DNA of 64,000 nt from Kineococcus mangrovi (GTDB taxonomy: Bacteria; Actinomycetota; Actinomycetes; Actinomycetales; Kineococcaceae): the NCBI RefSeq assembly GCF_041320705.1, contig NZ_JBGGTQ010000005.1, forward strand, positions 124,001 through 188,000, in the 5' to 3' direction. Both the position numbers and the translations under genes were made by a program. Of the stretch, positions 10,489-29,178 are shown piece by piece. Every line of letters begins with the position of its first letter. The first letter of the stretch is position 1. Below the pieces are notes generated by a model. That model saw only the letters and a list, made by a program, of their open reading frames with translations. It searched no databases and was not told where the DNA came from.

Positions 10489-10515
10489 CTCAAGCGGCTC
10501 CGGGGGGCCGCCGAT
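10489..10515 (+). promoter_or_regulatory. Candidate FliA/WhiG-type promoter of pilT (CTCA-N17-GCCGAT)
   Basis: CTCA at 10489-10492 and GCCGAT at 10510-10515, 17 bases apart, about 70 bases before the pilT ATG. The same spacing and the extended CTCAAGC recur before the pilin gene and pilM. The -10 half matches the sigma-28 element GCCGATAA at 7 of 8 positions (GCCGATGA). Confidence 0.55.
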
Positions 10516-10584
10516 GAGCACTGCAGAGCGCCGGCAGACGGCCGTGCGCCCCGTCGTGCTCGAGGTCGGGCTGTGGGGAGCGAG

Positions 10585-12000
10585 ATGGACAACGCTGGTC
10601 AGGGCGGGCAGCCCGTGGAGCCGTACGTCCCGGCGAACCTCCGGCCGGCGGGGGCGGACGGCGTGCCCTCGGCGCGCCCAAACATCAGCGCCCTGCTCAA
10701 GCAGCTGGAGAGCGACCAGGCCGTCATCGCGGCCCCCGCCCAGCCCCCGGCGCCGCAGGGGTTCCAGCTCGCGCCCCCCGCGTCCGTCCAGCAGGTGCCC
10801 GTCCAGCAGGTGCCCGTCCAGCAGGTGCCCGTCCAGCACGTCCCCGCCCCGCCGTCGGTGGCCCAGCTCGCCCCCGAGGTCGAGGCCCACCAGGCACCGG
10901 CGCTCGTCACGAGCGGAGGCGACGACGTCGCGGTCCCCGTCCGCGTCAACGACGTGCTCGTCCGCGCCCTCGAACTGGGCGCCTCCGACATCCACCTCAC
11001 CTCCGGCGCCCACCCCACGGTGCGCCTGTCCGGTGAGATGACCGCGCTGGACGAGTTCCCGAAGATGGTGTCCAAGACGTTGCAGGAGGCGGTCTACGCC
11101 GTCCTCACCCAGAAGCAGCGCGAGGTGTTCGAGGCGAACCTAGAACTCGACTTCGCCTACCAGGTGCCCGGGCACTCCCGCTTCCGCGTCAACGTCTACC
11201 GCCAGCGCGAGTCCGTCGGTGTCGCCTTCCGCCGCATCCCCTTCGAGATCAAACCGTTGGAGGACCTCGGCGTCCCGCCCGTCGTCGGGTCCTTCGCCGG
11301 GCTGCAGCGCGGTTTCGTCCTCGTCACCGGCCCGACCGGTTCGGGGAAGTCGACGACGCTCGCCTCGATCGTCGACCTCGCCAACCGCACCCGCAAGGAC
11401 CACATCATGACGGTCGAGGACCCCATCGAGTTCCTCCACCGCCACAAGAGCTGCATCGTCAACCAGCGCGAGGTGGGGGAGGACACCAAGTCCTTCGCCA
11501 ACGCGCTCAAGCACGTGCTGCGCCAGGACCCCGACATCATCCTCGTCGGTGAGATGCGCGACCTGGAGACCATCTCCGTCGCCCTCACCGCCGCCGAGAC
11601 CGGTCACCTCGTGTTCGGCACCCTGCACACCCAGAGCGCCGCCTCCACCATCGACCGCGTCATCGACGTGTTCCCCCCGCACCAGCAGACCCAGATCCGC
11701 ACCCAGCTCGCCGGCGCCATCCAGGGCGTCGTCTGCCAGACGCTGTGCAAGCGCGCCGACGGCCGCGGTCGCGTCGTCGCCACCGAGGTCATGGTCGCCA
11801 CCCCCGCCATCCGCAACCTCATCCGCGAGGGCAAGACCCACCAGATCGGCTCGGCCATGCAGGCCGGCGCGCAGTACGGCATGCACACGCTCGACCAGCA
11901 CCTGGCCGACCTCGTGCGCACCCGCCAGATCACGTTCGAACACGGCCTGGAGAAGTGCTCCGCCGCCGAGGAATACCGCCGCCTGACCGGGCGCGTCTGA
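10585..12000 (+). CDS. pilT: Type IV pilus twitching-motility ATPase PilT
   Basis: 471-residue hexameric secretion-type ATPase that powers pilus retraction at the cytoplasmic membrane. Its ATG follows GGGGAG. The N-terminal ~110 residues are Pro/Gln-rich and poorly conserved, with a VPVQQ repeat at about 68-87. The conserved PilT body then begins: ASDIHLTSGAHPTVRLSGEM, Walker A GPTGSGKSTT near 250, Asp box, Walker B ILVGEMRDLETI near 320, His box GHLVFGTLHT and the PilT-specific AIRNLIREGK near 410. Those features favour PilT over the extension ATPase PilB, which is not in this window. The gene starts a long + strand pilus cluster and is followed by pilC after 13 bp. Confidence 0.96.
   Translation: MDNAGQGGQPVEPYVPANLRPAGADGVPSARPNISALLKQLESDQAVIAAPAQPPAPQGFQLAPPASVQQVPVQQVPVQQVPVQHVPAPPSVAQLAPEVEAHQAPALVTSGGDDVAVPVRVNDVLVRALELGASDIHLTSGAHPTVRLSGEMTALDEFPKMVSKTLQEAVYAVLTQKQREVFEANLELDFAYQVPGHSRFRVNVYRQRESVGVAFRRIPFEIKPLEDLGVPPVVGSFAGLQRGFVLVTGPTGSGKSTTLASIVDLANRTRKDHIMTVEDPIEFLHRHKSCIVNQREVGEDTKSFANALKHVLRQDPDIILVGEMRDLETISVALTAAETGHLVFGTLHTQSAASTIDRVIDVFPPHQQTQIRTQLAGAIQGVVCQTLCKRADGRGRVVATEVMVATPAIRNLIREGKTHQIGSAMQAGAQYGMHTLDQHLADLVRTRQITFEHGLEKCSAAEEYRRLTGRV
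10786..10845 (+). repeat. 15-bp tandem repeat (4 copies) in pilT
   Basis: Three exact copies of GTCCAGCAGGTGCCC followed by one diverged copy, encoding Val-Gln-Gln-Val-Pro units in the disordered N-terminal extension of PilT. Confidence 0.95.
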
Positions 12001-12013
12001 GAGGGAGAGCGAC

Positions 12014-13249
12014 GTGGCGACTGTGACGAAGGCGAAGACCTTCGACTACTCCGTGCGGGACAGGAGCGGCAAGCTGGTCTCGGGGACGCTGGAGGCCACG
12101 GACCAAGCCGCTGTCCTCCAACGGCTCAAGACGATGGGTCTCGTGCCCGTCAGCGTCAACGAGTCGAAGGCCGGTCAGGGCCTGCAGATGGAGATCAACC
12201 TCCCCGGCTCGGGCAAGGTCAAGATGAAGGACCTGGCCATCATGTCGCGGCAGTTCGCCACCATGGTGGCCTCGGGGCTTACGCTCATCCGGGCGCTGGG
12301 CATCCTGGCCGAGCAGACGGAGAGCAAGAAGCTCGGCCAGGTGCTGACCGAGGTCCGTGGCGAGGTCGAGGCGGGAGCAGCCCTCTCGACGTCGATGGCC
12401 AAGCGGCCGCGGGTCTTCCCCCCGCTGATGACGAACATGATCCGCGCCGGTGAGGTCGGCGGTTTCCTCGACGGGGTCCTGCTGCGCATCGCAGCGAACT
12501 ACGAGTCCGAGGTCAAGCTCCGCGGCAAGATCAAGTCGGCCATGACGTACCCGGTCGTGGTCCTCATCATGGCGGTCCTGGCGGTGTTCGGGATGCTGAT
12601 GTTCGTCGTCCCGGTCTTCAAGGAGATGTTCTCCTCGCTGGGGGGAACCCTGCCCGGCCCGACCCTGGTCCTGGTCTTCCTGAGCGAGCAGATGGTGTGG
12701 GTCGCCCCGCTCGTGGTGGTGCTGGTCGTCTCGTCCGGGTTCGTCTGGACCCGCATCAAGAACCGTGACGACGTCCGGGGGTTCGTCGACCCCTTGAAGC
12801 TGAAGATCCCGGTCTTCGGGATGCTGTTCCAGAAGGTGGCGCTCAGCCGCTTCGCCCGCAACATGAGCACGATGCTGGCGGCCGGTGTCCCCATCCTGCA
12901 AGCCCTCGACATCGTCGCCGAGACCACGGGCAACATCACCTTGACCCGGGGCATCCGGGACGTCCAGGAGAGCGTCCGCAACGGTGAGTCCCTCACCGGC
13001 CCGCTCTCCAAGCACAAGGTATTCCCGTCGATGATGGTACAGATGATGGCCGTCGGTGAGGACACCGGTGCCATCGACGCCATGCTGGAGAAGATCTCGG
13101 AGTTCTACGACGACGAGGTCGAGACCATGACCGAGAGCCTCACCGCGCTATTGGAACCACTGATGATCGCGGTGCTGGGCGGCATCATCGGCTCGATGGT
13201 CATCGCGCTGTATATGCCGATGTTCAAGATCATGGACCAGATCAAGTAG
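12014..13249 (+). CDS. pilC: Type IV pilus inner-membrane platform protein PilC (type II secretion F family)
   Basis: 411-residue polytopic membrane protein forming the assembly platform with PilM/N/O. GTG start after GAGGGAGAG. The N-terminal ~60 residues carry the usual FDYSVRDRSGKLVSGTLEA module. Two repeated T2SSF domains follow, each ending in membrane helices: MSRQFATMVASGLTLIRAL with TYPVVVLIMAVLAVFGML, and RFARNMSTMLAAGVPILQAL with LLEPLMIAVLGGIIGSMV. The final MYMP-like residues (ALYMPMFKIMDQI) are a family hallmark. A strong hairpin at 13271-13296 closes this transcript before the pilin gene. Confidence 0.96.
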   Translation: MATVTKAKTFDYSVRDRSGKLVSGTLEATDQAAVLQRLKTMGLVPVSVNESKAGQGLQMEINLPGSGKVKMKDLAIMSRQFATMVASGLTLIRALGILAEQTESKKLGQVLTEVRGEVEAGAALSTSMAKRPRVFPPLMTNMIRAGEVGGFLDGVLLRIAANYESEVKLRGKIKSAMTYPVVVLIMAVLAVFGMLMFVVPVFKEMFSSLGGTLPGPTLVLVFLSEQMVWVAPLVVVLVVSSGFVWTRIKNRDDVRGFVDPLKLKIPVFGMLFQKVALSRFARNMSTMLAAGVPILQALDIVAETTGNITLTRGIRDVQESVRNGESLTGPLSKHKVFPSMMVQMMAVGEDTGAIDAMLEKISEFYDDEVETMTESLTALLEPLMIAVLGGIIGSMVIALYMPMFKIMDQIK

Positions 13250-13270
13250 TTCCACCGCGTCGCGTCCACG

Positions 13271-13296
13271 GCCCGTGAGCACCTGTGCTCGCGGGC
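13271..13296 (+). terminator. Hairpin terminator downstream of pilC
   Basis: Inverted repeat GCCCGTGAGCAC / GTGCTCGCGGGC with only CT between the arms; one G-T pair, otherwise perfect over 12 bp. No T-run follows, as is common in high-GC actinobacteria. Confidence 0.75.
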
Positions 13297-13352
13297 TGTC
13301 GTCGTAGCCGGCCCTCGGCGTTGATCCAGGCGGGTGACGCTGTGAGGACCTG

Positions 13353-13379
13353 CTCAAGCTGGTCGTGCAGAGGACCGAA
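13353..13379 (+). promoter_or_regulatory. Candidate FliA/WhiG-type promoter of the pilin gene (CTCA-N17-ACCGAA)
   Basis: CTCA at 13353-13356 and ACCGAA at 13374-13379, spacing 17, extended as CTCAAGCTG exactly as upstream of pilM. It lies 80 bases before the pilin ATG and after the pilC terminator, so the pilin has its own promoter. Confidence 0.55.
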
Positions 13380-13459
13380 GAACTCAGTACAAGAGCCGCC
13401 CACACCGACTCGGTGCGCGACCCGCGAGCGGCTCGGGACTCACGAAAGGGAGCATCGAA

Positions 13460-13861
13460 ATGCTCGCTCGCATCCGCAAGGCCATGCAGGAGAAGGACCA
13501 GGGGTTCACCCTGATCGAGCTCCTCGTCGTCATCGTCATCATCGGCATCCTGGCGGCCATCGCCATCCCGACGTTCCTCAACCAGCGTGAGAAGGCGTGG
13601 ACCCGCGCGGCCCAGTCCGACCTGCGCAACGCCGCCACCAACATGGAGACGTACTTCGGCGACAACGGTACTTACGTGGGTGGTCCTGGCGCGGACAACG
13701 CCTTCAAGATCTCTACTGAGACGAACAACAACCCGACGGTCGTGGGCGCTTCGACGACCGGCTACTGCATCCAGATCGTCAGCAAGAAGCTCCAGGGCGC
13801 CGACGCGACCTGGAACTTCAAGAGCTCGGTCGGCAGCCCGGCCAAGGGTGCTTGCGCCTGA
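13460..13861 (+). CDS. pilA: Major type IV pilin (PilA-like prepilin)
   Basis: 133-residue prepilin. A short positively charged leader ends in Gly15, followed by the class III signal FTLIELLVVIVIIGILAAIA, with Phe16 as mature residue 1 and Glu20 as the conserved Glu5. The mature ~118-residue protein has the long N-terminal helix, LRNAATNMETYFGDNGTY, and a Cys pair (GYCIQIV and the C-terminal GACA) that would form the D-loop disulfide. ATG preceded by AAGGGAG. Monocistronic-looking: own promoter upstream, UUCG hairpin terminator immediately downstream. PilD (17880-18668) should process it. Confidence 0.95.
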   Translation: MLARIRKAMQEKDQGFTLIELLVVIVIIGILAAIAIPTFLNQREKAWTRAAQSDLRNAATNMETYFGDNGTYVGGPGADNAFKISTETNNNPTVVGASTTGYCIQIVSKKLQGADATWNFKSSVGSPAKGACA

Positions 13862-13942: not shown

Positions 13943-15226
13943 GTGCACACGAAGGGCGAGCAGAGCGCGGACGAGGGGTTCACCCTCGTCGAGGTCATCG
14001 TCGCCTCCGCCATCTTCCTCGCGATCGGCACCGCGGTGACGGCGGCCCTCATGGTGGCGCTGCGGACCGCGGCGACCAACGAGGGCCGGGTGCAGGCCGC
14101 CAACCTCGCGGCGCGGCAGATCGACCTCGTCCGCAGCGGGGACGTCAGCGCCCTGGCCGGCACCACCTACGACGTGCAGCGGGGATCGCTTAGGTACCGT
14201 GTGACGCAGACGGTCGATTCCCAGACGGTCGACGTCGGCGGGTCGGCCTGCGACGGCGCCTCCGGCGCCGAGGCCGTCAAGCGTGTGACGGTCATCGTGA
14301 CCTGGGACGGCATGGGGGACGCCACCCCGGTGCGGTCCGACACCTACCGCACCCTCCCCGTGACCGGTTCCAGCGCGACCAAAGGGACCTTGACCTACAA
14401 GGTTGTGGACCGCAACGGCACCCCCGCGGCCGGTGCCCCCATCGCCCTGCGCAAGGGCGGCACCCTGGTCAAGACGTCGACGACGCGCGCCGACGGGTGC
14501 GTCGTGTTCTCCAACCTGGACGCGGGGACCGACTACACCGGCACCCTCACGCAGGCGGGTTTCGTGAACAACCAGCACCTGGCCAGCGTCAGCAAGGCGA
14601 ACGTCGTCGTCGCCCGCACCGTGACCAAGGACCCCGGCTTCGTCTGGGACGGTGCGGCCTTGCTGACCGTCAGCGCGAGCGCGCCCGCAGGGTACCCGGT
14701 GCCCTCGAACGTCCCGCTGAGCCTCTTCAACTCCAACTTGACCAGCGGGTCACTCACCCTGCCCGGGTGCGGGAACACCCCGTGCGCGTCCCTGTCGACG
14801 ACGGCGTCGGGGGCGACCTGGACTGCAAGGGGCCTCTTCCCCTTCGCCTCGACCTACCAGCTGTCCTCCGGGGCGTGCGGAACCGCCTGCACCCGCGCGC
14901 AGACGTCGGTCCAGGCCACTCCCGGCCAGACCACCGTCGCCGCGGCACCCGCCTTCGGGGGAGTGGCGGCCACCGCGGGGACGCTCGTCTCCGGCGTCCT
15001 GGGGTCCAACGCCGTCCGGACGCTCACCGCGACAAACGCCGATCTCACCAGCGAGCGATACACCTTCCCGACGGCGACGGGCGGTGACGGCACACCGGCG
15101 AAGATGGCCCTGCCGCCCGGCCGGTGGTACATCGCGCAGAACCCCGGGGAGACCAACGACGCCTACCGCGTCCTCGTCACCGTCCAGCCCGGCCAGACCT
15201 ACTCCGTGGCGGTGCTCGCCCGATGA
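13943..15226 (+). CDS. Minor-pilin-like prepilin with carboxypeptidase-regulatory/Ig-like domain (PilV position)
   Basis: 427 residues, GTG start behind GAGGAGGAGG. Prepilin cleavage motif Gly12-FTLVEVIVASAIF, then a pilin-like helix to about residue 50. From about 148 (GTLTYKVVDRNGTPAAGAPI) a CNA-B/carboxypeptidase-regulatory-like fold follows, then a Ser/Thr/Gly-rich beta-strand region with four paired cysteines (PGCGNTPCAS, GACGTACT). It is far longer than ordinary PilV and would place a large exposed domain at the pilus tip or along the fibre. The stop overlaps the next gene (ATGA), so it forms an operon with the two following pseudopilins and pilD. Confidence 0.85.
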   Translation: MHTKGEQSADEGFTLVEVIVASAIFLAIGTAVTAALMVALRTAATNEGRVQAANLAARQIDLVRSGDVSALAGTTYDVQRGSLRYRVTQTVDSQTVDVGGSACDGASGAEAVKRVTVIVTWDGMGDATPVRSDTYRTLPVTGSSATKGTLTYKVVDRNGTPAAGAPIALRKGGTLVKTSTTRADGCVVFSNLDAGTDYTGTLTQAGFVNNQHLASVSKANVVVARTVTKDPGFVWDGAALLTVSASAPAGYPVPSNVPLSLFNSNLTSGSLTLPGCGNTPCASLSTTASGATWTARGLFPFASTYQLSSGACGTACTRAQTSVQATPGQTTVAAAPAFGGVAATAGTLVSGVLGSNAVRTLTATNADLTSERYTFPTATGGDGTPAKMALPPGRWYIAQNPGETNDAYRVLVTVQPGQTYSVAVLAR

Positions 15227-15975
15227 TGCGTGCTCTCAACGCCCGGTTCGCCGGCGTCCGCGACCGTCTCGCCGGTCGGTCCGACGCGGGAGTGACCCTC
15301 GTCGAGCTCCTCGTCGTGATGGTCGTCACGAGTGTCATGGCCACCGCCGTCATGATCACCGTCCTCCAGGCGCTGCGCGCGACGCGCTCGGCCGACGGGC
15401 GGCAGGACCGGGCGGCCCAGGCGCGGATCGCCCTGGACGGGGCGACGACGGTCCTGCGGACCGCATCGCTGTACACCAACAGCGACGGCGTCGACGTACC
15501 GGCCTTCGACCGCATCACCCCGACGGAGGTCGTCTTCCGAGGCAACCTCTCCAACATCGCCACCACCTCGGGGGCCGCCGACGCTGCACCGACCCTCTTC
15601 CGCATCACGCTCGACACGAGCGACCCACAGGACAGCAAGCTCGTCGAGCAGCGGTGGAAGAGCACGACCCGTGACCGCTCGGGCAACTGGGTGTACCCGT
15701 CGAGCGTCACGTCCACGCGCGTCCTCGCCCACCGGGCCCAGGCCGTCGACGGTGCCGTCTTCACGCCCTTTGCCGCCGCGGACGTCACGACCGTCATCGA
15801 CGCCGAGCAGATCAGCTCCACCGTCCCGCGCGCTGCGGACCGCTCGGTGACGCCGGCCGGTCTCAAGTCGGTCGTCGGGATCCGCGTTTCGCTCGCCGTG
15901 ACACCCCCTGTGGGTGAGACGGGTGACGCGGCAACCTTCAGCAACTACGTCGACTTCGTCAGCAAGGTGGGGTGA
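15223..15975 (+). CDS. Minor-pilin-like prepilin (PilW/PilJ type)
   Basis: 250 residues. The ATG at 15223 overlaps the preceding stop (ATGATG). The prepilin motif is Gly23-VTLVELLVVMVVTSVMATAV with the Glu5 equivalent at 28, a relaxed version of GFTLIE. The rest is a pilin-like globular region, SADGRQDRAAQARIALDGA onward, ending in ISLAV-type strands and NYVDFVSKVG. Minor pilins of this class initiate pilus assembly in complex with PilV/PilX-like partners. It sits between the PilV-like and PilX-like genes, three bases before the latter. Confidence 0.85.
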   Translation: MMRALNARFAGVRDRLAGRSDAGVTLVELLVVMVVTSVMATAVMITVLQALRATRSADGRQDRAAQARIALDGATTVLRTASLYTNSDGVDVPAFDRITPTEVVFRGNLSNIATTSGAADAAPTLFRITLDTSDPQDSKLVEQRWKSTTRDRSGNWVYPSSVTSTRVLAHRAQAVDGAVFTPFAAADVTTVIDAEQISSTVPRAADRSVTPAGLKSVVGIRVSLAVTPPVGETGDAATFSNYVDFVSKVG

Positions 15976-15978: not shown

Positions 15979-17883
15979 GTGCGCCGGTTCTCCCTGCGCG
16001 ACGACAGCGGGTACGCACTCGCGTTCGTCATGATCGCGATGCTGGTCATCGCCATCACGGTCGCGACGACCATCACGATCGCCATCGCCAACACGAAGCC
16101 CGCTCGCGCCACGGCGAACTCCCAGGCCGCGCTGTCGGCCGCCCAAGCGGGCGTCGACGATTTCGTCATGCGCCTGAACGCCTGCGACACGTACTGGCGC
16201 GACGCCTGGAACGTCCAGAACGGCATCGTCCCCGCCGGCGGCCGGGTCTGCGGCACGAGCACGGACAGCCCCGCCCTCACGGGTGGCTACGGGACGACTC
16301 CGGGGACGGACGCCGCGGGAGCCGGTCGCTTCCGGTACCGGCTCGTCTCCATCCCCGACCCGTCCCTCTCCTCCGGCGGCATCCGCCTGGAGGTGACGGG
16401 GGAGTACAAGGAGGAGACCCGCCGCATCACGGTCGACCTGCGCAAGGAGGGGTTCCTGCGCTACATCTACTACACGGACAAGGAGTCCTCGTCCCCGACG
16501 ATCATGGAGTCGCGGTACGGGCAGCGGACCATCACCCTGGATCGCCAAGGCTCGAACACGGCCTTCGGGACGAGTACCGCGAGCGGCAGCAGCTACATCT
16601 CCAGGCTCGAGTACTCGGGTATCGGCAACGCCTCCCTGTGCGGGAACTACTACTACTTCGACGGCTCCGGTTCTGTCCGTCGTGCTGCCAGCGACAGCAG
16701 CACAAACTTCTCGGCCAAGACCCTGCCCGAGACCGCGACCGCCTACTGGAACTCAGGCGCCTACGCGGGGCAGTGGACGATCAACCGGAGCTGCGAGATC
16801 CAGTTCGGCCCGAACGACGCCATCCGCGGCAAGCTCTACTCCAAGGATGCCCTGTACCTGGGTGGCAACAGCTCCAGCAAGCCGCGGTTCGACGGGGAGG
16901 CCCTCTCGTTCTGGCAGCCGAGCTACTCGCCCGCTCCGCGCCCCAACGCGCCGTGGCGGGACTCCTCCTCGGCTTCCGGGTACGACCCCGACGGTCAGGC
17001 ACCGGCCACCACGACGCAGGCCGTCGACCTGCCCCCGACGAACGACCAGCTCAAGCAGGTCGCCACGTCCGGCGGCTGCGTCTACAGCGGACCCACCAAG
17101 ATCGTCATGCGTGCGGACGGCAGGTACGACGTCACGAGTCCGCGGACCACCACGAGTTCCGTCTCCTGCGGTTCTGGCCTGGCAACGGGTACGCGCACGG
17201 TGACGGGTCCGGCCAACGGCGTCATCTACGTCGACTCCTGGAACGGCGGCTGCACCGACCCGACGGCATCGGGAGCGGCGTCCCAGAAGCTCTTCGGCCT
17301 CTACCCCGTCACGGGGGACATCACGCGGTACACCTGCCGCGACGGGGACGCCTTCGTCGAGGGCACGGTCAAGGGCCGGTACACGATCGCCAGCGCCAAC
17401 CGCGTCATCGTGACCAACAACGTGCGGTACGCGGCCGGCCAGAGCGCCTCCGGGACGGACGTCCTCGGTCTGATCTCCGGCTCCGGCAACGTCGAGGTCT
17501 ACCACCCCGTCGGGTGCACCAACGGCGCCGGCGCCAGTGCGGGCACCTGCGTGAACGACGCCCCGGACTTCGGCCTGGGGTCGGCGACCCAGTTCGCCAA
17601 CCTGAGCGGGTCGATCACCGACCCCGTCATCCACGCGGCACTGCTATCCGTCGGCGGGTCCTTCACCGTGCAGAACTACGACAAGGGCCAGGCCCTGGGG
17701 ACGCTGTCCGTGTTCGGCGGCATCTACCAGCGGCAGCGCGGGGCGGTGGCCCTGTCGGGGTCGACCGGTTACATCAAAGACTACGTGTACGACGCGAAGC
17801 TGGTGTCGGCCCCGCCGCCGTCGTTCATCCAGCCGGCATCGGACCCCTGGTTGGTGGCTTCCTTCAGCGAGGATCAGCGGTGA
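15979..17883 (+). CDS. Large PilX-like pilus assembly protein
   Basis: 634 residues, GTG start 3 bases after the preceding stop. The N-terminus DDSGYALAFVMIAMLVIAITV is a prepilin-like segment (Gly11 then a hydrophobic helix) without Glu5, as in PilX-type proteins. A very long periplasmic/surface region follows, rich in Gly, Ser, Thr and Tyr with predicted beta structure. It has scattered Cys residues and segments such as VIYVDSWNGGC and DTVKGRYTIA-like repeats that resemble the polymer-like DUF7305 tail seen in actinobacterial and deltaproteobacterial PilX proteins (from memory). Length is far beyond classical PilX (~200 aa). The stop overlaps the pilD start (GTGA). Confidence 0.8.
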   Translation: MRRFSLRDDSGYALAFVMIAMLVIAITVATTITIAIANTKPARATANSQAALSAAQAGVDDFVMRLNACDTYWRDAWNVQNGIVPAGGRVCGTSTDSPALTGGYGTTPGTDAAGAGRFRYRLVSIPDPSLSSGGIRLEVTGEYKEETRRITVDLRKEGFLRYIYYTDKESSSPTIMESRYGQRTITLDRQGSNTAFGTSTASGSSYISRLEYSGIGNASLCGNYYYFDGSGSVRRAASDSSTNFSAKTLPETATAYWNSGAYAGQWTINRSCEIQFGPNDAIRGKLYSKDALYLGGNSSSKPRFDGEALSFWQPSYSPAPRPNAPWRDSSSASGYDPDGQAPATTTQAVDLPPTNDQLKQVATSGGCVYSGPTKIVMRADGRYDVTSPRTTTSSVSCGSGLATGTRTVTGPANGVIYVDSWNGGCTDPTASGAASQKLFGLYPVTGDITRYTCRDGDAFVEGTVKGRYTIASANRVIVTNNVRYAAGQSASGTDVLGLISGSGNVEVYHPVGCTNGAGASAGTCVNDAPDFGLGSATQFANLSGSITDPVIHAALLSVGGSFTVQNYDKGQALGTLSVFGGIYQRQRGAVALSGSTGYIKDYVYDAKLVSAPPPSFIQPASDPWLVASFSEDQR

Positions 17884-18668
17884 TCCTCCTGGTCACCCTG
17901 TCCGCTCTCCTCGGTCTCGCCGTCGGGTCGTTCCTCAACGTCGTCGTGCACCGCGTTCCCGCAGGACGAAGCGTGGTGAGACCGTCGAGCCGGTGTCCAG
18001 GATGTGACCGGGGGATCCTGCGCCGCGACAACGTCCCCGTCCTGTCGTGGCTGGTGCTGCGCGGCAGGTGCAGGCACTGCGGGACGGGTATCTCCGTGCG
18101 CTACCCCGTCGTGGAGCTCCTCACGGGCCTGCTCTTCGCGGCGGTGGCTTGGCAGGTCGGCCTCTCGTGGGCCTTGCCGGCCTACCTCTACCTCACGGCC
18201 ATCGCCGTCGCCCTGTCGGCGATCGACCTCGACGTCCACCGGCTTCCCGACGCCATCGTGCTGCCCTCGTACCTCGTCACCTCGGTCCTCCTTCTCGTCG
18301 CAAGTCTGGGAACCGGCGACTGGTACGCGCTGGTACGTGCGCTGGTCGGCGGCGTCGCCCTCCTGGCCGTCTACTTCGCGCTGTTCGTGGTCAGACCGGG
18401 GGGGATGGGGTTCGGCGACGTGAAGCTGGCCGGTGTCCTCGGACTGTACCTGGGCTGGCTCGGCTGGTCCGAACTCCTCGTCGGCGCCTTCCTCGCCTTC
18501 CTCGTCGGAGGTGTGGTCAGCATCGGCCTGGTCGCCTTCGGGCGCGCGGGGCGGAGATCCCGCATCCCGTTCGGCCCGTTCATGCTCCTGGGTGCTGTGA
18601 CGGCGGTCTTCGCCGGCGCTGCGCTCGGGCAGTGGTACGTCGGGCTGTTCGGCCTGACCGCCGCCTGA
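17880..18668 (+). CDS. pilD: Type IV prepilin peptidase / N-methyltransferase PilD
   Basis: 262-residue polytopic membrane aspartyl protease that cleaves prepilin leaders and methylates the new N-terminus. GTG start overlaps the preceding stop. It keeps the cytoplasmic zinc domain with two CxxC pairs (C39/C42 and C64/C67) and the GSFLNVVVHRVP block. Catalytic aspartates lie in SAIDLDVHRLPD (about 115-122) and in the GxGD motif GFGDVKLAG near 176-180. About eight hydrophobic helices. It follows its likely substrates directly and precedes the pilM promoter. A prepilin peptidase beside aroE also occurs in mycobacteria (Rv2551c region, from memory). Confidence 0.95.
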   Translation: MILLVTLSALLGLAVGSFLNVVVHRVPAGRSVVRPSSRCPGCDRGILRRDNVPVLSWLVLRGRCRHCGTGISVRYPVVELLTGLLFAAVAWQVGLSWALPAYLYLTAIAVALSAIDLDVHRLPDAIVLPSYLVTSVLLLVASLGTGDWYALVRALVGGVALLAVYFALFVVRPGGMGFGDVKLAGVLGLYLGWLGWSELLVGAFLAFLVGGVVSIGLVAFGRAGRRSRIPFGPFMLLGAVTAVFAGAALGQWYVGLFGLTAA

Positions 18669-18697: not shown

Positions 18698-18724
18698 CTC
18701 AAGCTGCCCTCATGGGCTACCGAT
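18698..18724 (+). promoter_or_regulatory. Candidate FliA/WhiG-type promoter of pilMNO (CTCA-N17-ACCGAT)
   Basis: CTCA at 18698-18701 and ACCGAT at 18719-18724, spacing 17; extended match CTCAAGCTG with the pilin promoter. The pilM GTG is 56 bases downstream. Confidence 0.55.
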
Positions 18725-18780: not shown

Positions 18781-19824
18781 GTGCCTGGACGCAACGCCAT
18801 CGGCCTGGACATCGGGACGTCGGGTGTTCGCGCCGCCGAGCTGTCCTACGGCAAGAACGGCATCACGCTCGAGAAGTTCGGCCAGGTCGCCCTGCCCGAG
18901 GGTGCCGTGCGTGACGGAGAAGTCGTCGACCGCGCTGTCGTGGCCGACGCTCTGCGCACCTTGTGGAAGGCTAGCGGTTTCAAGGGCAAGGACGTCGCCC
19001 TGGGGGTGGCGAACCAGCGCGTCGTGGTGCGTCAGGTCGACCTCCCGTGGTTGCCGGCCAAGGAGTTGAAGGCGGCCTTGCCGCTGCAGGTCCAGGACTA
19101 CCTGCCCATGCCTGTCGCCGACTGCATCCTGGACTTCCACCCGGTCACCGAACTCCAGGAGGACGGCGGCCGGAAGCTGCGGGGGCTGCTGGTCGCTGCT
19201 GCCCGTGACATGGTGATGGCCAATGTCGACGCCGTGCGCGCAGCAGGTCTGCGAGCGAGGTCGGTCGACCTCACGTCCTTCGCCGTCCTCCGCGCCGTCG
19301 GTCAGGTGCACGGTGACGTCGCCACCGAGGCGCTCGTCGACATCGGCGCCCGGGTGAGCAACCTCGTCGTCCACTCGGCCGGCGCCCCCCGGTTCGTGCG
19401 CGTCCTCCTCTCCGGGGGCCAGGACGTGACCGACGCCATCGCCGAGCGCCTCGGCCTGCCCGGGAACGTCGCCGAAGCCGTCAAGCGGCGGACCGAGGAC
19501 GTCTCGGACGCGGAGCAGGACCTCGCGCGGTCCGCCGTCGACCTGATGGTCGAGGTGTTCGTCGACGAGATCCGTTCGTCCCTCGACTACTACGGCGCCG
19601 CCAACCCGCAGTTCCGCATCGAACGCCTCGTCCTCACCGGTGGCGGCTCCCTGCTCGAGGGGATCGCCGAGCGCCTCCAGGCCGCCAGTCGCGTGCCTGT
19701 CGTGTGGGGCGACGCGATCGCTCCCCTGCACGTGGGGAACACCGGGCTCGACGAGTCCCAGCTCGCCAGCATCCAGACTCTCGCCGCCGTCCCGGTCGGC
19801 CTCGCGCTCGGAGCGATCTCATGA
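18781..19824 (+). CDS. pilM: Type IV pilus biogenesis protein PilM (actin-like ATPase)
   Basis: 347-residue cytoplasmic FtsA/MreB-fold protein that docks to the PilN N-terminus and couples PilT/PilB to the platform. GTG start after AAGGGGG. Phosphate-1 motif AIGLDIGTSGVRAAEL at the N-terminus, LPLQVQDYLPMP (typical PilM), a second phosphate block ALVDIGARVSNLVVHS and the adenosine motif LVLTGGGSLLEGIAERL. The stop overlaps pilN (ATGA), giving the standard pilM-N-O order. Confidence 0.95.
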   Translation: MPGRNAIGLDIGTSGVRAAELSYGKNGITLEKFGQVALPEGAVRDGEVVDRAVVADALRTLWKASGFKGKDVALGVANQRVVVRQVDLPWLPAKELKAALPLQVQDYLPMPVADCILDFHPVTELQEDGGRKLRGLLVAAARDMVMANVDAVRAAGLRARSVDLTSFAVLRAVGQVHGDVATEALVDIGARVSNLVVHSAGAPRFVRVLLSGGQDVTDAIAERLGLPGNVAEAVKRRTEDVSDAEQDLARSAVDLMVEVFVDEIRSSLDYYGAANPQFRIERLVLTGGGSLLEGIAERLQAASRVPVVWGDAIAPLHVGNTGLDESQLASIQTLAAVPVGLALGAIS

Positions 19825-20471
19825 GTTTCCAGACCCTCGAGGCGGTGGCTACCCGCCACGACACGGCGCGCGTCGACCTCCTGCCGCCCGAGATCGGACA
19901 GGCACGCGCCCTGCGGAAGCTGCAGGTGGGCCTGGGGTGCGGTGTCGTGGCGGTCGCCGTCGCAGCCGCCGCCGCGGCCCTGGTCACCCAGGGACACGTC
20001 GACGCCGCGCAGGACGCACTGGCCGCCGAGCGGGCCCGGACCCCGGCCCTCCAGCAGGAGCAGGCCGAGTACGCCGAGGTGCCGGCGGTGCTGGCGGAGG
20101 TGGCGCTCGTGGAGTCCGCCCGCGACCAGGCGCAGGCCCACGACGTGAAGCTCTACAGCCTGATGGACCAGGTGGCGGCCACCGCGCCGGCTGACCTGTC
20201 CCTCACCACCTTGACCTTCACCGTCACCGCGGGCGAGGCCGGGACCGCCGCGGCGACCGCCGGCGTGGCGACCTCCGATTCGCCCGGGACCGTCGACGTC
20301 GTCGGGGTCACGAAGAGCGAGAGCCAGGTGGCGTCGTTCATGGAGTCCCTCGACGCCCTCGACGGCATCGACGGCACGACTCTCGCCAGCACCGCCCGGG
20401 ACGAGTCCGGGGTCATCACGTTCACGCTGTCCGGTGCCCTGACGCCGGCCGCCCTCGCGCACGGCTCCTGA
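19821..20471 (+). CDS. pilN: Type IV pilus inner-membrane alignment protein PilN
   Basis: 216 residues; the ATG overlaps the pilM stop. The N-terminus contains RVDLLPPEIGQAR, the PilM-binding INLLP-like motif of PilN. One transmembrane helix follows (about 39-58, very Ala/Val-rich), then a coiled-coil-like Ala/Glu-rich segment and a small alpha/beta domain ending in GVTKSESQVASFMESLDAL. The family partner PilO is the next gene. Assignment rests on motif, topology and position more than on strong sequence identity. Confidence 0.88.
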   Translation: MSFQTLEAVATRHDTARVDLLPPEIGQARALRKLQVGLGCGVVAVAVAAAAAALVTQGHVDAAQDALAAERARTPALQQEQAEYAEVPAVLAEVALVESARDQAQAHDVKLYSLMDQVAATAPADLSLTTLTFTVTAGEAGTAAATAGVATSDSPGTVDVVGVTKSESQVASFMESLDALDGIDGTTLASTARDESGVITFTLSGALTPAALAHGS

Positions 20472-20493: not shown

Positions 20494-21198
20494 ATGAGCA
20501 TCTCGAAGAGCAAGACCTGGGCCGCCGGGGCCGCTGTGCTGTCCCTCCTGGTCCTCGTGGCCACCTGGTTCCTGGTCATCGGTCCCAAGCGGGCCGAGGC
20601 CGCGGACCTCGCCACCGACACCTCGGCCGCACAGGCGCAGAACGAGCAGATCGCCCAGCAGACGGAACTCCTCAAGGCGCAGTTCGCCACGCTGCCGCAG
20701 GAGAGGGCAGCCCTCGCAGAGATCCGGTCCCAGTTCCCGTCGGCCGCCGATGTGCCCGCTCTGCTGCGCACCTTGGAGTCGTTCGCGGGTGCCACGGGGG
20801 TCACCATCACCGCGATCCAGCCCGGGGCCATCGCCCCCTACTCGCCCACCGGCGCCGATGCCAGCACAGCTGTGGCCCCCGCAGCGACCCCCGGTGGCCT
20901 GTCGGCCATCCCCCTCACGCTGACCGTCTCGGGGACCTTCGCACAGACCGAACTGTTCGTGAAGCAAGCGCAGGCCGACATGAAGCGGTACTTCCTGCTC
21001 GACACGGTCGCGCTGTCCACCGACCAGAACGCCGGCGCGTCCGGGGCGACCTCCTCGGTGACGAGCACGATCGGCGGGAAGGTCTTCGTCCTGCCCGACA
21101 CCGCTGCCAGCGCCGCACCCGTCGGTGACGGCGCCTCGACCACTGTCACCTCCAACGCTCAGACGCCGGTCGCCGGCGACTCGGCCCCGACGAACTGA
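20494..21198 (+). CDS. pilO: Type IV pilus inner-membrane alignment protein PilO
   Basis: 234 residues, ATG preceded by GGAGGAGAG. Short cytoplasmic N-terminus, one TM helix (about 8-30), a coiled coil (AQNEQIAQQTELLKAQF), then the PilO ferredoxin-like core: QFPSAADVPALLRTLESFA, GVTITAIQPG, and LTLTVSGTFAQTELFVKQAQ. The C-terminal ~40 residues are low-complexity Ser/Thr/Ala. It would heterodimerise with PilN to link the platform to outer components. Confidence 0.9.
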   Translation: MSISKSKTWAAGAAVLSLLVLVATWFLVIGPKRAEAADLATDTSAAQAQNEQIAQQTELLKAQFATLPQERAALAEIRSQFPSAADVPALLRTLESFAGATGVTITAIQPGAIAPYSPTGADASTAVAPAATPGGLSAIPLTLTVSGTFAQTELFVKQAQADMKRYFLLDTVALSTDQNAGASGATSSVTSTIGGKVFVLPDTAASAAPVGDGASTTVTSNAQTPVAGDSAPTN

Positions 21199-22329: not shown

Positions 22330-23730
22330 ATGTCCCACCCCACCCACCGGCGCGCGACCCGCGCCGTCGTGGCGACCGCGCTGGCCGCCGCGTCCGTCGC
22401 CGTGGCTGTCCTTCCTGCCCAGGCGACCCCGATCCGTGCTCACCAGACGTACGGTGCGGACCGCTACCTCACCTCGCTGGTGCTGGAGGACGGCGCTTTC
22501 GACACGGCGTTCCTCGTCACCGGCGAGGACTTCCCCGACGGTCTGGCCGCGGGGGCGGTGGCCGGCTCGCTGGGCGCGAACGTCTACCTGTCGCCGCGGG
22601 GGCAGGTCACCCCGGAGATCCGTCAGCGCCTGGGGTACTACCGCAACATCGTGGTCATGGGCAGCGAGACCGCCCTCAGCGCCGACGTGTGGACGTGGCT
22701 GCAGCAGAACACCCGCGCGCACCTGCACCGGGTCGCCGGCGCGGACCGGTACGGCACGGCGGCCGAGCTCGCGACCTGGGCTCACCCCCAAGGTGCGGAC
22801 CATGTCATCGTAGTGACCGGCACGAACTACGCCGATGCGCTGTCGGGCGCTGCGGCCGGGGCGAAGACCGACGCCCCGGTGCTGCTGGTCCGTCCGGACG
22901 GAGTTCCCGAGCAGACCGCCGCAGCCCTGACGGCGCTCAAGCCGGGCCGTGTCACGGTCCTCGGTTCCGAGGCCGCCGTCCCGCGGGCCGTCTACGACAG
23001 CCTGGCCCAGCTCGCGCCCGCCGCGACCTTCCAGCGCCTGGCCGGTGCCGACCGCTACGCCACCGCCGTGGAGGTCGCGAAGGCGTTCTTCACGCCCGGC
23101 GACACCCAGCGCGCGGTGCTCGTCTCCGGTGCCAGCTGGGCCGACGGCGTGACCGCGGGTGCCTACGCCGGTCGTCGTGGTGCCCCGCTCCTGCTGACCC
23201 CGGCCACGTGCGTTCCCCAGGTGGTCAACCTGGAGATCGAGGCGCTGGGCGTCGTCTCGCTCGACGCGGTGGGGGGCCCCACGGTCCTGTCCGAGGACGC
23301 CCGCAAGCGGACGTCCTGCGAAGCCGGGCCGAAGACCTACCTGGACGAGCTGGCGGCACCGACGGGCAACGCCCGTTTCCTGTCCGACCACGCCACCATC
23401 GACGGTGTGTTCTACCCGCGGTCGATCTCCTACGACACCGACCCCCGTAACTCTGAGTACCGCACGTGGGGCCTCACCGGGAGGTACTCCCGCTTCACCG
23501 CCACGGTGGGACTGGGTGACACCAACCAGTCGGGGCTGCGATCGACGGTCGCCGTCTACGGCGACGAGAAGCAGCTCGCCTCCGTCGCGGTGGCCGCAGG
23601 TTCGCCGGCGGTGCTGGACGTCGACGTCTCGGGTGTCCAGAACCTGAAGGTCGTGACGACCTCGTCGGACCGGACGGTGCAGGTGAGCACGGACAACAAC
23701 GTCGTCCTCGGGGACGCGGCCCTGCGCTGA
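22330..23730 (+). CDS. Secreted cell-wall-binding repeat (CWB2) protein with C-terminal NPCBM-like domain
   Basis: 466 residues. Sec signal peptide (RRATRAVVATALAAASVAVA ... AQA, cleaved near residue 32). Three CWB2 repeats follow, with the marker sequences YGADRYLTS, VAGADRYGTA and LAGADRYATA and their VLVTG/VVTGTNYADALS/VLVSGASWADGV companions. The C-terminal ~120 residues (IDGVFYPRSISYDT, GRYSRFTATVGLGDT, LDVDVSGVQNLKVV) look like an NPCBM/NEW2 carbohydrate-binding domain. CWB2 domains bind wall polymers non-covalently. The ATG start is 49 bases after the previous gene with no clear separate promoter, so it may be a pilus-operon surface protein. Confidence 0.9.
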   Translation: MSHPTHRRATRAVVATALAAASVAVAVLPAQATPIRAHQTYGADRYLTSLVLEDGAFDTAFLVTGEDFPDGLAAGAVAGSLGANVYLSPRGQVTPEIRQRLGYYRNIVVMGSETALSADVWTWLQQNTRAHLHRVAGADRYGTAAELATWAHPQGADHVIVVTGTNYADALSGAAAGAKTDAPVLLVRPDGVPEQTAAALTALKPGRVTVLGSEAAVPRAVYDSLAQLAPAATFQRLAGADRYATAVEVAKAFFTPGDTQRAVLVSGASWADGVTAGAYAGRRGAPLLLTPATCVPQVVNLEIEALGVVSLDAVGGPTVLSEDARKRTSCEAGPKTYLDELAAPTGNARFLSDHATIDGVFYPRSISYDTDPRNSEYRTWGLTGRYSRFTATVGLGDTNQSGLRSTVAVYGDEKQLASVAVAAGSPAVLDVDVSGVQNLKVVTTSSDRTVQVSTDNNVVLGDAALR

Positions 23731-26284: not shown

Positions 26285-26345
26285 TTCGTCGTCCCCGCCC
26301 CTAGGATCGGACGGCCCGCCGCACCCGTCCCCCAGGAGCTCGTCC

Positions 26346-26879
26346 GTGATTGTCATCGTCGGCTTCATGGGCGCGGGCAAGACGACCGTGGGCCGCCTCC
26401 TCGCCGGTCGACTCGGCCTGCCGTTCGTCGACACCGACCACGTGATCGAGGACCGCGAGCGCCGGTCCATCCCGCGGATCTTCAAGACCGAGGGCGAGAG
26501 CGCGTTCCGCGACGTCGAGCAGGCCGTCGTCGCCGACGTCCTGTCCGGCCCCGAGGCCGTGGTGTCCCTGGGCGGTGGCGCGTGCGGCCGGGAGGCCACG
26601 CGGGCGGTGCTGCGGGACCACACCGTCGTCCACCTCGACGTCTCCCTCGAGCAGGCCCGGTGCCGGACCGCCGGTGACGGCAACCGGCCCGTGCTGCAGC
26701 GCCCGGACCTGGCCGAGCTGCACGCGGCGCGCCGGGCGGTCTTCTACGCCCTGGCGGACGTCGAGGTCGACACCGACGGCCGCGCGGCCCGGCCCGTCGC
26801 GGACGAGGTGCTGGCCGCGCTACCCCACATCCACGACGCACCGGCCGGTGCGCCCGACGACCTCGCGGAGGACCGATGA
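26346..26879 (+). CDS. aroK: Shikimate kinase
   Basis: 177-residue P-loop kinase that phosphorylates shikimate at O3. GTG start after CAGGAG. Walker [16 protein letters not shown] at the N-terminus, shikimate-binding Asp in [21 protein letters not shown] (Arg of FRxxE), SLGGGAC glycine-rich substrate loop, and the lid RPVLQRPD. The C-terminal ~20 residues are unconserved. Stop overlaps aroB (ATGA). aroK-aroB-efp-nusB is the conserved actinobacterial order. Confidence 0.96.
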
Positions 26880-27964
26880 CCACGACCGACACCGCACGCA
26901 TCACCGTCGAGGGCGAGGCGCCCTACGACGTCCTCATCGGCCGCGGCCTGCTGGGGGAGCTGCGCGGCCTGCTCGGCTCGAAGGTCGCCAAGGTGCTCGT
27001 CGTGCACCCGCGGGCGCTGCGCTCGACGGGCGAGGCCGTGCGCGACGACCTCGTCGCCCAGGGGCTGGAGGCCGTGCTGGCCGAGGTGCCCGACGGGGAG
27101 GAGGCCAAGTCAGCGGAGGTCGCCGCGTTCTGTTGGACCGTCCTGGGGCAGTCGGACTTCACCCGCAGCGACGCCGTCGTCGGCGTCGGTGGGGGAGCGG
27201 TGACCGACCTCGCGGGGTTCGTCGCGGCGACGTGGTTGCGCGGCGTCCGGGTCGTTCAGGTCCCCACGACGTTGCTGGCGATGGTCGACGCCGCGGTGGG
27301 GGGCAAGACGGGCATCAACACCGCCGAGGGCAAGAACCTCGTCGGCTCCTTCCACCCGCCGGCCGGTGTCCTGTGCGACCTCGACGCCCTCGACACCCTG
27401 CCGCCGCACGACCTGCGCGCGGGCCTCGCCGAGGTCGTGAAGTGCGGGTTCATCGCCGACCCGCGGATCCTCGAGCTCGTGGAGGCGGACGTCGCCGCGG
27501 CCACCGACCCGCGCTCGCCGGTGCTGGCCGAGCTCGTCGAGCGCGCGGTGCGGGTCAAGGCGCGCGTGGTCGCCGAGGACCTCAAGGAGTCCGACCTGCG
27601 GGAGATCCTCAACTACGGCCACACCTTCGCCCACGCGGTCGAACTGGTCGAGCGCTACCAGTGGCGGCACGGGGCGGCCGTCAGCGTCGGCCTCTGCTAC
27701 GTCGCCGAGCTGGCGCGCATGGCGGGCCGGTTGTCGGACGCGGACGCCGACCGGCACCGCGACGTCCTGCGCTCGCTCGGCCTGCCGACGACCTACCGGG
27801 GTGACCGGTGGCCGCAGCTGCTGGACGCGATGAAGCGGGACAAGAAGACCCGCGGGTCCCTGCTGCGCTTCGTCGTCCTCGACGGGATCGGACGACCGTC
27901 TCGGCTGGAGGGCCCGGACCCGGCGATGCTGCAGGCGGCCTACGCGGAGATCAGCGCCGAGTGA
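26876..27964 (+). CDS. aroB: 3-dehydroquinate synthase
   Basis: 362-residue NAD- and divalent-metal-dependent enzyme converting DAHP to 3-dehydroquinate. ATG overlaps the aroK stop. Signature blocks: [23 protein letters not shown] (NAD-binding glycines), [46 protein letters not shown], and the metal ligands in [11 protein letters not shown]. Translational coupling with aroK indicates a shared operon. Confidence 0.97.
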
Positions 27965-27973
27965 GGGCTCACC

Positions 27974-28612
27974 TCACCCGCAGGGGGTCTCGCTGACGCC
28001 CTGCGCGGGTGAGGCGTACCGCACGACACCACCGGCGACGGACACCCCCCGCAGGCAGTACCCGCCGCTGGTGGCCGCCACGACCGAGACCCGGCTGACC
28101 GTGCTCGTCGTCCCGAGCGCGTCGACCGTCGTGGCGTACGTGCCGTAGAACCGCTCGTACGAGGTCTGCGCGGCGCTGACCTCCTCCAGGTCGGCGGTGA
28201 CGGCGGCGATCTCCTTGCGCTGCACTTGCTCCATCAGCACCGGGTAGCCGTACTTCCCGCCGATGGCCAGAGCCACCAGGACGGCGGCCCACGTCGTCAC
28301 CGTCTTCACCGGGTGCCGGCCCGCGCGGTGCGGGACCGCTTCGGTGCGGGGCACCTGGAACGGTGAGGCGTTGCCGGGGTTGAAGGTCGGCCGCGACGGG
28401 TTCGCCGGTCCGTAGAAGTCTCCCGCCGGCGGGGGGACCACGGCCGGCCGGGGAACGGGAACCGGGGGAGGCGGTGCGGGTGCTCCCGTCCGCTGCGCGT
28501 CGCCGGCGAGGGGTTCGTCGGGTTCGGGAACCTCTGCCCGGTGCCGCGGCCGGGTCGGACGTGCCGGATCGGGCAGCGGCGTCGGGCCGGCGTCGGTGCA
28601 GGGTTCGGTCAC
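27974..28612 (-). CDS. Pilin-like membrane protein lacking a prepilin signal
   Basis: About 212 residues; the GTG at 28612 is chosen because CCGAGGAGGA precedes it. A ~95-residue Pro-rich cytoplasmic N-terminus leads to one TM helix (TTWAAVLVALAIGGKYGYPV). The C-terminal domain mirrors the globular part of the pilin at 13460-13861: helix VTADLEEVSAAQTSYERFYG, then GTY, a strand region, GGYC and a terminal ETPCG, so the YC...C disulfide spacing is kept. There is no GFTLxE cleavage site, so PilD processing is unlikely. A CTCC-N17-GCCGAT promoter-like element precedes it. It follows the related gene at 28696-29076 on the same strand. Confidence 0.75.
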   Translation of the reverse strand: MTEPCTDAGPTPLPDPARPTRPRHRAEVPEPDEPLAGDAQRTGAPAPPPPVPVPRPAVVPPPAGDFYGPANPSRPTFNPGNASPFQVPRTEAVPHRAGRHPVKTVTTWAAVLVALAIGGKYGYPVLMEQVQRKEIAAVTADLEEVSAAQTSYERFYGTYATTVDALGTTSTVSRVSVVAATSGGYCLRGVSVAGGVVRYASPAQGVSETPCG

Positions 28613-28640
28613 GGTGTCCTCCTCGGGGCTCACCCGGGTC

Positions 28641-28667
28641 ATCGGCGCCCGCGGACCGGGGGTGGAG
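28641..28667 (-). promoter_or_regulatory. Candidate FliA/WhiG-type promoter (CTCC-N17-GCCGAT) of the pilin-like gene
   Basis: On the minus strand CTCC (28667-28664) and GCCGAT (28646-28641) are 17 bases apart, about 30 bases before the GTG start. One mismatch to the CTCA of the three pil-cluster sites; same spacing. Confidence 0.4.
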
Positions 28668-28695
28668 GGGACTCACCCTCGTGGAGCACCGGGCG

Positions 28696-29076
28696 TCAGC
28701 GGCAGGCGGTGGAGCCGAACCCCCGGGTGGGGGAGAAGAACAGCGCGGTCCGCGTCGGCTCGTCGTAGGCGCCGGCGCAGAACGTGTCCGGACCCGCGCT
28801 GACGATGGCGACGTCCGTGCGCGCCGAGACCCGGAGGTCGAGCAGCGAGGCCGAGTAGGTCCCGTGGTCGTCCTTCCAGGCCACCTGCGCCGTCGCCACG
28901 CGCTGGAGGTCCTCGTGCAGGTCCCGCTCGGCGCTGGACCGGCGACCGTCGAGGAGCAGGGTGACGGCGACGGCCAGTGCGAGAGCGGCCGCGACCCCCG
29001 CGGCCAGGACCGTCGTCCGACGGCCCCGTCCCCGTGGGGTGGGGGCGGCCGTGTCCGGCGCTGCCTGACGGCTCAC
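28696..29076 (-). CDS. Pilin-like membrane protein lacking a prepilin signal (second copy)
   Basis: 126 residues, GTG start with GAGGAGAGGGGG upstream. Basic N-terminus (~23 aa), TM helix (TVLAAGVAAALALAVAVTLLL), then a ~80-residue domain laid out like a pilin head: DLHEDLQRVATAQVAWKDDH, GTY, short strands, DTFCAG and a C-terminal GSTACR, giving one potential disulfide. It lacks the Gly/Phe/Glu5 prepilin signature. The 84-base gap to the following gene contains that gene's own promoter-like element. Its start region is tandemly duplicated (29068-29137), and a CTCA-N17-CCCGAT element lies upstream. Confidence 0.75.
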   Translation of the reverse strand: MSRQAAPDTAAPTPRGRGRRTTVLAAGVAAALALAVAVTLLLDGRRSSAERDLHEDLQRVATAQVAWKDDHGTYSASLLDLRVSARTDVAIVSAGPDTFCAGAYDEPTRTALFFSPTRGFGSTACR

Positions 29077-29137
29077 GGGCGACCCCCTCTCCTCGGACGG
29101 CTCACGGGCGACCCCCTCTCCTCGGACGGCTCACGAG
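29068..29137 (-). repeat. 29-bp tandem duplication of the start/RBS region of the pilin-like gene
   Basis: Copies at 29068-29096 and 29097-29125 are identical, and a partial third copy runs 29126-29137. Each carries a GTG-AGC-CGT start; the full copies also carry the GGAGAGGGGG ribosome-binding site. Because 29 is not a multiple of 3, each upstream GTG opens a 10-codon frame whose TGA overlaps the next GTG (GTGA). Confidence 0.95.
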
Positions 29138-29151
29138 CGTGTCCACCAGTG

Positions 29152-29178
29152 ATCGGGCGCACCGGCGCGTGCGCTGAG
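29152..29178 (-). promoter_or_regulatory. Candidate FliA/WhiG-type promoter (CTCA-N17-CCCGAT) of the second pilin-like gene
   Basis: Minus strand CTCA (29178-29175) and CCCGAT (29157-29152), spacing 17. A start about 7 bases downstream would give a ~70-base leader containing both duplicated mini-ORF starts. Confidence 0.45.

Follow-up and report, generated by a model that had tools for sequence, protein, structure and literature searches.

Which sigma factor reads the promoters of the type IV pilus genes in the motile soil coccus Kineococcus mangrovi, and what else does it read? The question is raised by a stretch of 64,000 nucleotides (nt) of this genome, called here the window (contig NZ_JBGGTQ010000005.1, positions 124,001 to 188,000), in which the pilus locus carries the same promoter-like element before three of its genes. 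The original prediction had described four exact sites of the form CTCA-N17-NCCGAW (N, any base; W, A or T) and a CTCC variant, and had likened them to sigma-28 (FliA/WhiG) elements, among them the form CTCA...GCCGAA, which is said to be the consensus of the FliA family of Actinoplanes. All five sites are real and lie at the places given (Table 1), except that for the two minus-strand sites the upper values, 28664 and 29175, mark where the CTC[A/C] box stops on its inner side, and the sites in full extend to 28667 and 29178. We propose, from sequence evidence, that these sites are sigma-28-type promoters with WhiG as their most likely reader, and that they would serve a single programme of motility and pilus formation, a reading to which we give a probability of roughly 70 percent.

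Taken by itself the window is just suggestive, because 2 of 100 shuffled sequences also reach four exact sites (shuffle mean 0.81). The four sites lie 56-80 nt before the called gene starts downstream of them; the pattern CTC[CGT]-N17-GCCGAT has four matches in the window, so that the CTCC variant is weak taken alone. A genome-wide scan, as the original prediction had proposed, places the motif far above its control, which throughout is the reversed pattern counted in the same sequence: 67 sites against 4 for CTCA-N17-NCCGAW, and 28 against 2 for CTCAAG-N16-CCGAW. When the gap in CTCAAG...CCGAW is freed over 13 lengths, a single length accounts for 28 of the 42 matches and the next shorter one for 6, which leaves 8 for the remaining lengths combined; the reversed pattern has 20 matches over the same lengths. 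The form CTCA...GCCGAT, scanned over 11 gap lengths, contains more background, since N13 and N19 (11 matches each) and N22 (10) are also well filled beside N17 (22 of 88) and N16 (16).

The placement of the sites points in the same direction. Upstream is defined here as lying in an intergenic gap of no more than 300 nt in front of a gene, according to our own simple gene caller, which leaves about 10 percent of the window non-coding. The CTCAAG sites precede genes in 26 of 28 cases (25 by the gene caller and one further by reading), and the two remaining ones sit in genes, one of them 152 nt before fliI; the site C4:280544 was counted as coding sequence because a called gene contains it and because two other genomes of the genus (G002 and G005) have exactly the same 27-mer. 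The other 39 CTCA sites are distributed differently (Fisher p 4e-6), with 20 of them lying within genes, 13 upstream of one and 6 in other places. CTCAAG is thus the best promoter mark, given that 25 of 28 such sites and only 13 of 39 other CTCA sites precede genes.

The motif is kept across the genus. CTCAAG-N16-CCGAW is present in 11 of 11 genomes, with 281 sites against 5 for the reversed pattern. For orthologues, 109 sites were clustered, taken from our genome (G000), from parts of G001 (21 of 21 sites), G002 (27 of 29) and G005 (24 of 30), and from four named Kineococcus loci, with G003, G004 and G006-G010 left out and the two PilT paralogues merged by the clustering; PilM is 71-77 percent identical to its nearest named relatives, which are Kineococcus species. 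Among eight pil loci an exact site precedes pilT in five and pilA in four, the other four having one before the next gene, and pilM in seven; the eighth has a site 1.09 kb before pilN, its pilM frame not being recovered by the motif look-up. Four of these eight loci had been selected through PilM, independently of the site, and all four have it before pilM. Outside the genus the element stands before pilM in five of five actinobacterial loci (L069-L073), as CTCAAG-N16-CCGAT in L069 and L073 and as CTTAAG-N16-CCGAA in L070, L071 and L072, where the CTTAAG matches come from a looser pattern adopted after the exact one, and where L071 is closely related to L072. An origin of the sites in chance or base composition could appeal to the modest significance within the window, and to the CTCA sites without AAG, which are mostly not promoters; the genome, spacing and genus controls together with the orthologous conservation contradict it, and we consider it hardly credible.

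The position of start codons also agrees with promoter function. Across 100 sites of four genomes an ATG or GTG follows at 9 nt in 21 cases, at 8 nt in 10 and at 7 nt in 8, over a background of 2.6 on average per offset (offsets 12 to 119), in counts that pool orthologues and hence are not independent. In our genome 12 of the 28 sites have a start codon 7-9 nt past the site, where about 2.3 per 3-nt bin would be background; the 9-nt distance is kept by an EAL gene in four of four genomes and by a second pilT in all three in which the site was found. Where translation begins at the predicted first base of the transcript, the message has no leader, and a genuine promoter followed by leaderless starts would give such a peak at 8-9 nt. 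Since actinobacteria commonly have leaderless genes, this phasing is of value for placing the promoter and not as an oddity.

It might be supposed that the sites are operators of a transcription factor rather than promoters. A regulator does probably act nearby, since TCACCCGNNCGG, the 12-nt part of the palindrome TCACCCGnnCGGGTGA that was tested, occurs in strong excess across the genome, with 98 copies against 9 of the reversed pattern, and directly abuts the -35 box of some predicted promoters. However, the sites consist of two boxes with one preferred spacing, their -10 element GCCGAT is that of the flagellar consensus GCCGATAA (PMC8325347, in the part available), start codons are phased after the -10, and the motif co-occurs with a sigma factor, which makes the operator explanation very improbable. 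TCACCCGNNCGG resembles the BldM and BldM-WhiI boxes of Streptomyces in matching part of the Group I consensus TCACcCgnncGgGTGA, as given in the accessible part of PMC4125116; unlike those boxes, as far as they were compared, it is found genome-wide and is not confined to the predicted regulon. A BldM box as the full explanation was rejected, few of the 98 copies standing beside these promoters when the lists were compared by eye.

The genome encodes one WhiG (L031; NF004935, 438.4 bits, cut-off 343), whose best matches are the chains 6pfj and 6pfv, which we take to be Streptomyces WhiG, and one FliA-like factor within the flagellar cluster, which scores 187.2 bits, just under the TIGR02479 cut-off of 189.6. 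Both are found in 11 of 11 genus genomes, WhiG always over its cut-off. In order to separate them we followed the motif through 118 genomes of the class, 51 of them with WhiG over the cut-off. The 50 WhiG genomes other than our own, which was kept out of that class, contain 413 motif sites against 71 reversed, and the 62 genomes without WhiG 250 against 151, a difference that holds by family (Mann-Whitney p 2e-4); five genomes with a partial or sub-cut-off WhiG were kept out of both classes (39 against 5). Counting as FliA-like what is among the matches listed, down to about 97 bits, so that weaker ones may be missed, the motif stands at 85 against 17 in the 11 genomes with both factors, at 328 against 54 in the 39 with WhiG and no listed FliA-like protein, and at 10 against 6 in the six with a FliA-like protein and no WhiG. 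Because the motif count follows WhiG across the 118 genomes, WhiG is the likelier reader, if not with certainty, and it is in this sense that the sigma-28 assignment of the original prediction, borne out by spacing, reversed-pattern control, placement and conservation, may be refined. The alternative is that the FliA-like factor reads all these promoters in the manner of a canonical sigma-28, WhiG having other targets. Its gene lies near fliW, flgL, flgK, flgN, flagellin and fliD (flgL and flgN named by reading) and is present in all genomes of the genus, flagellar operons carry the motif, and its own promoter could reflect autoregulation. We nevertheless hold this to be unlikely, in view of the six FliA-like-only genomes without clear excess and the strong excess in the 39 WhiG genomes in which no such protein is listed.

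With WhiG as the reader, the fliA-like gene may itself be one of the targets. In all 11 genus genomes it is preceded by CTCAAG-N16 (two genomes) or N17 (nine) -CCGAG-N9-GTG, which our CCGAW pattern missed because the final G departs from W. This promoter is related to the main class and probably leaderless, and it suggests a cascade from WhiG to FliA. The genes flgN and fliS (CTCA-N16-GCCGAT) and flagellin (TTCA-N16-GCCGAT) have sites one base shorter than the main class and may form the second tier.

Several observations besides the possible loss of weak FliA-like matches weigh against WhiG as the single reader. WhiG and FliA are close in specificity and occur together throughout the genus, the FliA-like-only class is small (six genomes), and the N16 spacing of flgN, fliS and flagellin may indicate a second specificity. 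There is a mild motif excess in the genomes without WhiG (ratio 1.66), to which one fragmented genome contributes in part (G054, 14 against 2; it may lack WhiG just in its assembly), and no excess was seen in two WhiG-positive families of one genome each (f8 and f13). Of the four pil loci that were selected through PilM, just one has the exact site before pilT and two have it before pilA (in the other two it precedes the next gene), and in three of the clustered genomes the clusters were seeded from sites, so that orthologues without one are uncounted there. Start codons are also in excess at offset 3 (9 of 100 sites), for which we offer no explanation. Finally, pilB has no promoter of the CTCA...CCGA class in the patterns tried. 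This gene lies away from the pilus locus (C3:434297-435967, minus strand), within a dense gene run, and its product scores 585.7 bits, below the curated cut-off of 675.65, and has an MshEN domain.

On the preferred reading, RNA polymerase with WhiG would recognise promoters of the consensus CTCAAG-N15-GCCGAT and would switch on the pilus locus as three predicted transcription units, together with a second pilT, flagellar operons, chemoreceptors, GGDEF/EAL enzymes of cyclic di-GMP (c-di-GMP) and membrane-anchored pilin-domain proteins; the fliA-like gene would also be under WhiG, with FliA as a possible second-tier sigma factor. The genes behind the sites were named as follows: of the 38 sites upstream of a gene, 35 had their downstream proteins scanned by family models, two were named by reading and C15:7889 was left out, and among the 29 other sites only L001 and the FliI site were annotated. 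By family models the motif precedes PilT at 10573, PilA, PilM, a second, unlinked PilT (L019), FlhA, FliI, FliQ and three methyl-accepting chemotaxis proteins, in accordance with the expectation that it would be found before flagellar and chemotaxis genes; FlgB and FlbD, named by reading, follow sites as well. The FliI site is located inside the preceding gene, and one of the chemotaxis sites reads CTCAAC. Four GGDEF/EAL genes follow sites, two with CTCAAG (L007 and L038) and two with CTCAGG (L006 and L017), these last two and the chemoreceptor L014 being cases of CTCA without AAG. Further targets encode PAS proteins, an amidase with an LGFP repeat, a MarR-like regulator and several lyase- or hydrolase-like proteins, and seven proteins downstream of sites had no Pfam match in the family-model scan. 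An aldehyde dehydrogenase, a DeoR regulator, an ABC transporter and a carbonic anhydrase behind non-CTCAAG sites may be false positives. The original prediction of new regulon members is supported in this way, and the predicted set also includes GGDEF/EAL enzymes, the second pilT and probably fliA itself. A dispersal programme, as originally proposed, is something that we infer from the sequence.

Three of these loci have features of their own. The amidase gene (L059) has two predicted CTCAAG promoters in tandem, 151 nt apart. L048 and its orthologues in L082 and L131 encode a short, secreted-looking peptide of 66-80 residues; three of four genomes compared have a predicted promoter of the class there, and the L048 copy has no Pfam match. 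L011 and its orthologues in L077, L109 and L129 encode a protein of 137-161 residues with the motif in four of four genomes compared; it may be a new regulator, and the L011 copy has no Pfam or NCBIfam match.

The coordinates of the window features are collected in Table 1. The gene at 10573, named pilT in the original prediction, is indeed a member of the PilT/PilU family, and the genome as a whole has the type IVa set (PilB, PilT, PilC, PilD, PilM, PilN, PilO and pilin). Shortly after the pilM operon, at 22330-23730 on the plus strand, lies a gene whose product combines three cell-wall-binding CWB2 stretches with an NPCBM domain; by reading, a similar-looking gene has the same position in L066, L067 and L074. 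A flavin mononucleotide riboswitch lies at 63092-63218 on the plus strand (RF00050, 85.7 bits).

Table 1. Predicted promoters, genes and a BldM-like box in the 64-kb window
Feature	Position	Strand	Evidence or remark
Box CACCCGTTCGG, resembling part of the Streptomyces BldM Group I palindrome	10458..10468	+	31 nt upstream of the predicted pilT promoter
Predicted WhiG/sigma-28-type promoter before pilT-pilC	10489..10515	+	CTCAAG-N16-CCGAT
pilT (PilT/PilU-family ATPase)	10573..12000	+	TIGR01420, 486 bits, cut-off 319.1; translation may begin a few codons later
pilC (T2SSF)	12014..13249	+	Family model
Predicted promoter before pilA and minor-pilin genes	13353..13379	+	CTCAAG-N16-CCGAA
pilA, pilin with GFTLIE prepilin motif	13460..13861	+	PF07963
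Minor pilin	13943..15226	+	PF07963, 21.6 bits, cut-off 21.2
Minor pilin	15223..15975	+	PF07963
Large protein between minor pilins and pilD, possibly PilX-like by position	15979..17883	+	Gene call
pilD, prepilin peptidase	17880..18668	+	PF06750, PF01478
Predicted promoter before pilM-pilN-pilO	18698..18724	+	CTCAAG-N16-CCGAT
pilM	18781..19824	+	TIGR01175, 190.6 bits
pilN	19821..20471	+	PF05137
pilO	20494..21198	+	PF04350
Second, homologous pilin-domain protein	27974..28612	-	Probable start at GTG after GAGGAGGACACC, similar in G001; longest open reading frame to 28642
Weaker candidate promoter of second pilin-domain gene	28641..28667	-	CTCC-N17-GCCGAT
Membrane-anchored protein, predicted type IV pilin fold, no prepilin cleavage motif	28696..29076	-	
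Predicted promoter of first pilin-domain gene	29152..29178	-	CTCAGC-N16-CCGAT

The two minus-strand genes had been called pilin-like. The first protein has no Pfam match, and its predicted structure, a long N-terminal helix followed by a beta-sheet head, has Thermus PilA4 as its best match, so that the call agrees with a predicted pilin fold. Neither protein has a prepilin peptidase motif, even of the relaxed GFTLxE type, and as annotated both would therefore stay in the membrane. A leaderless start of the second gene was rejected, a Shine-Dalgarno-led GTG further in being similar in G001. Homology links the two proteins with one another and with the product of a gene at the same place, between aroB and efp, in a metagenome-assembled genome of Cellulomonas (L073), which has a CTCAGG-N16-CCGAT site upstream. 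Their profile also reaches PilA (E 6.5e-8 for the pilA of the window) and has matches in 18 of 149 genomes of the order, several of them true pilins with GFTLIE-type motifs. Seven of the matched genomes belong to the genus; the exact site precedes the first gene in four (G000, G002, G004 and G009) and is lacking in G001, G003 and G010, as it is in G180 of another genus. Before the second gene the CTCC form recurs in G004 and a CTCG form is found in G002, with none convincing in G001. Among the ten matched genomes of other families, G194, G135 and G130 have CTCAAG-N14-GCCGAT, one base shorter, before the pilin gene, and G215 has a site of this type after the pilin. L066 and L067 lack the pilin-domain genes at this position, and these genes are thus not essential to the system.

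Control of pili by the sigma-28 family is already published. In Rubrobacter radiotolerans a promoter search with start mapping described an RsiG-(c-di-GMP)-WhiG regulon with three WhiG-class promoters inside the type IV pilus cluster, which likely forms three transcription units, and five before diguanylate cyclase or phosphodiesterase genes (PMC8325347, in the part available). Kineococcus resembles Rubrobacter in being a non-sporulating unicellular actinobacterium and in having predicted promoters of the WhiG class at both kinds of genes, and differs in its -35 element, CTCAAG rather than TAAA beside the -10 GCCGATAA, and in the flagella and chemoreceptors among its predicted targets, none of which the accessible part of PMC8325347 describes for Rubrobacter. 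RsiG, part of the Rubrobacter system, was not identified here, no match being seen in the loci examined, which cover part of the genome and to which no RsiG sequence or model was applied. In zoospores of Actinoplanes missouriensis, a filamentous sporangium former, WhiG-like flagellar sigma factors direct flagellar and type IV pilus genes, according to the same portion of PMC8325347, and three FliA-family factors are reported in the part of PMC13293333 available, in contrast to one WhiG and one FliA-like factor here. The sequence GCCGA was not found in two Actinoplanes papers in which it was sought. The WhiG of Streptomyces is the same equivalog by NF004935, yet there, in organisms that are not motile, it switches on whiH and whiI, which are regulators of sporulation, and in 2013 the roles of WhiG in motile simple actinobacteria were described as not yet analysed (PMC4255298, in the part available). 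A full-text literature search, largely without subscription papers, returned no analysis of such a regulon in Kineococcus. The present result carries a known kind of regulon over into a motile genus, where a single predicted set would hold the genes for pili, flagella, chemotaxis and c-di-GMP.

The involvement of c-di-GMP may go further. A bldD homologue lies near the pilus locus (window 31721-32215, minus strand; PF21179). The MshEN domain binds c-di-GMP in MshE. With the GGDEF/EAL genes of the predicted regulon, bldD in the window and the MshEN domain of PilB, c-di-GMP may act at several levels, and any control of WhiG by it would be one that we infer.

Tentatively, and at somewhat less than even odds, Kineococcus may keep a role of WhiG that preceded sporulation, in which WhiG stands above FliA in a regulon for planktonic life and surface exploration that unites type IV pili, flagella, chemotaxis and c-di-GMP enzymes, and which Streptomyces would later have re-used for spores. 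The step to FliA would then depend on a message without a leader and on promoters shorter by one base, the BldM-type box would perhaps have been re-used too, and the pilus and c-di-GMP core would be shared with Rubrobacter, with the pilM promoter traceable in other actinobacterial lineages. The predicted regulon widens the Rubrobacter result to a second actinobacterial branch. The role in motile cells of WhiG, best known from sporulation in Streptomyces, becomes directly testable, with about two dozen predicted promoters that can be addressed singly and a predicted step from WhiG to FliA, and with the prediction that PilT-family ATPases would be transcribed together with the motility genes and the MshEN-bearing PilB-type ATPase would not.

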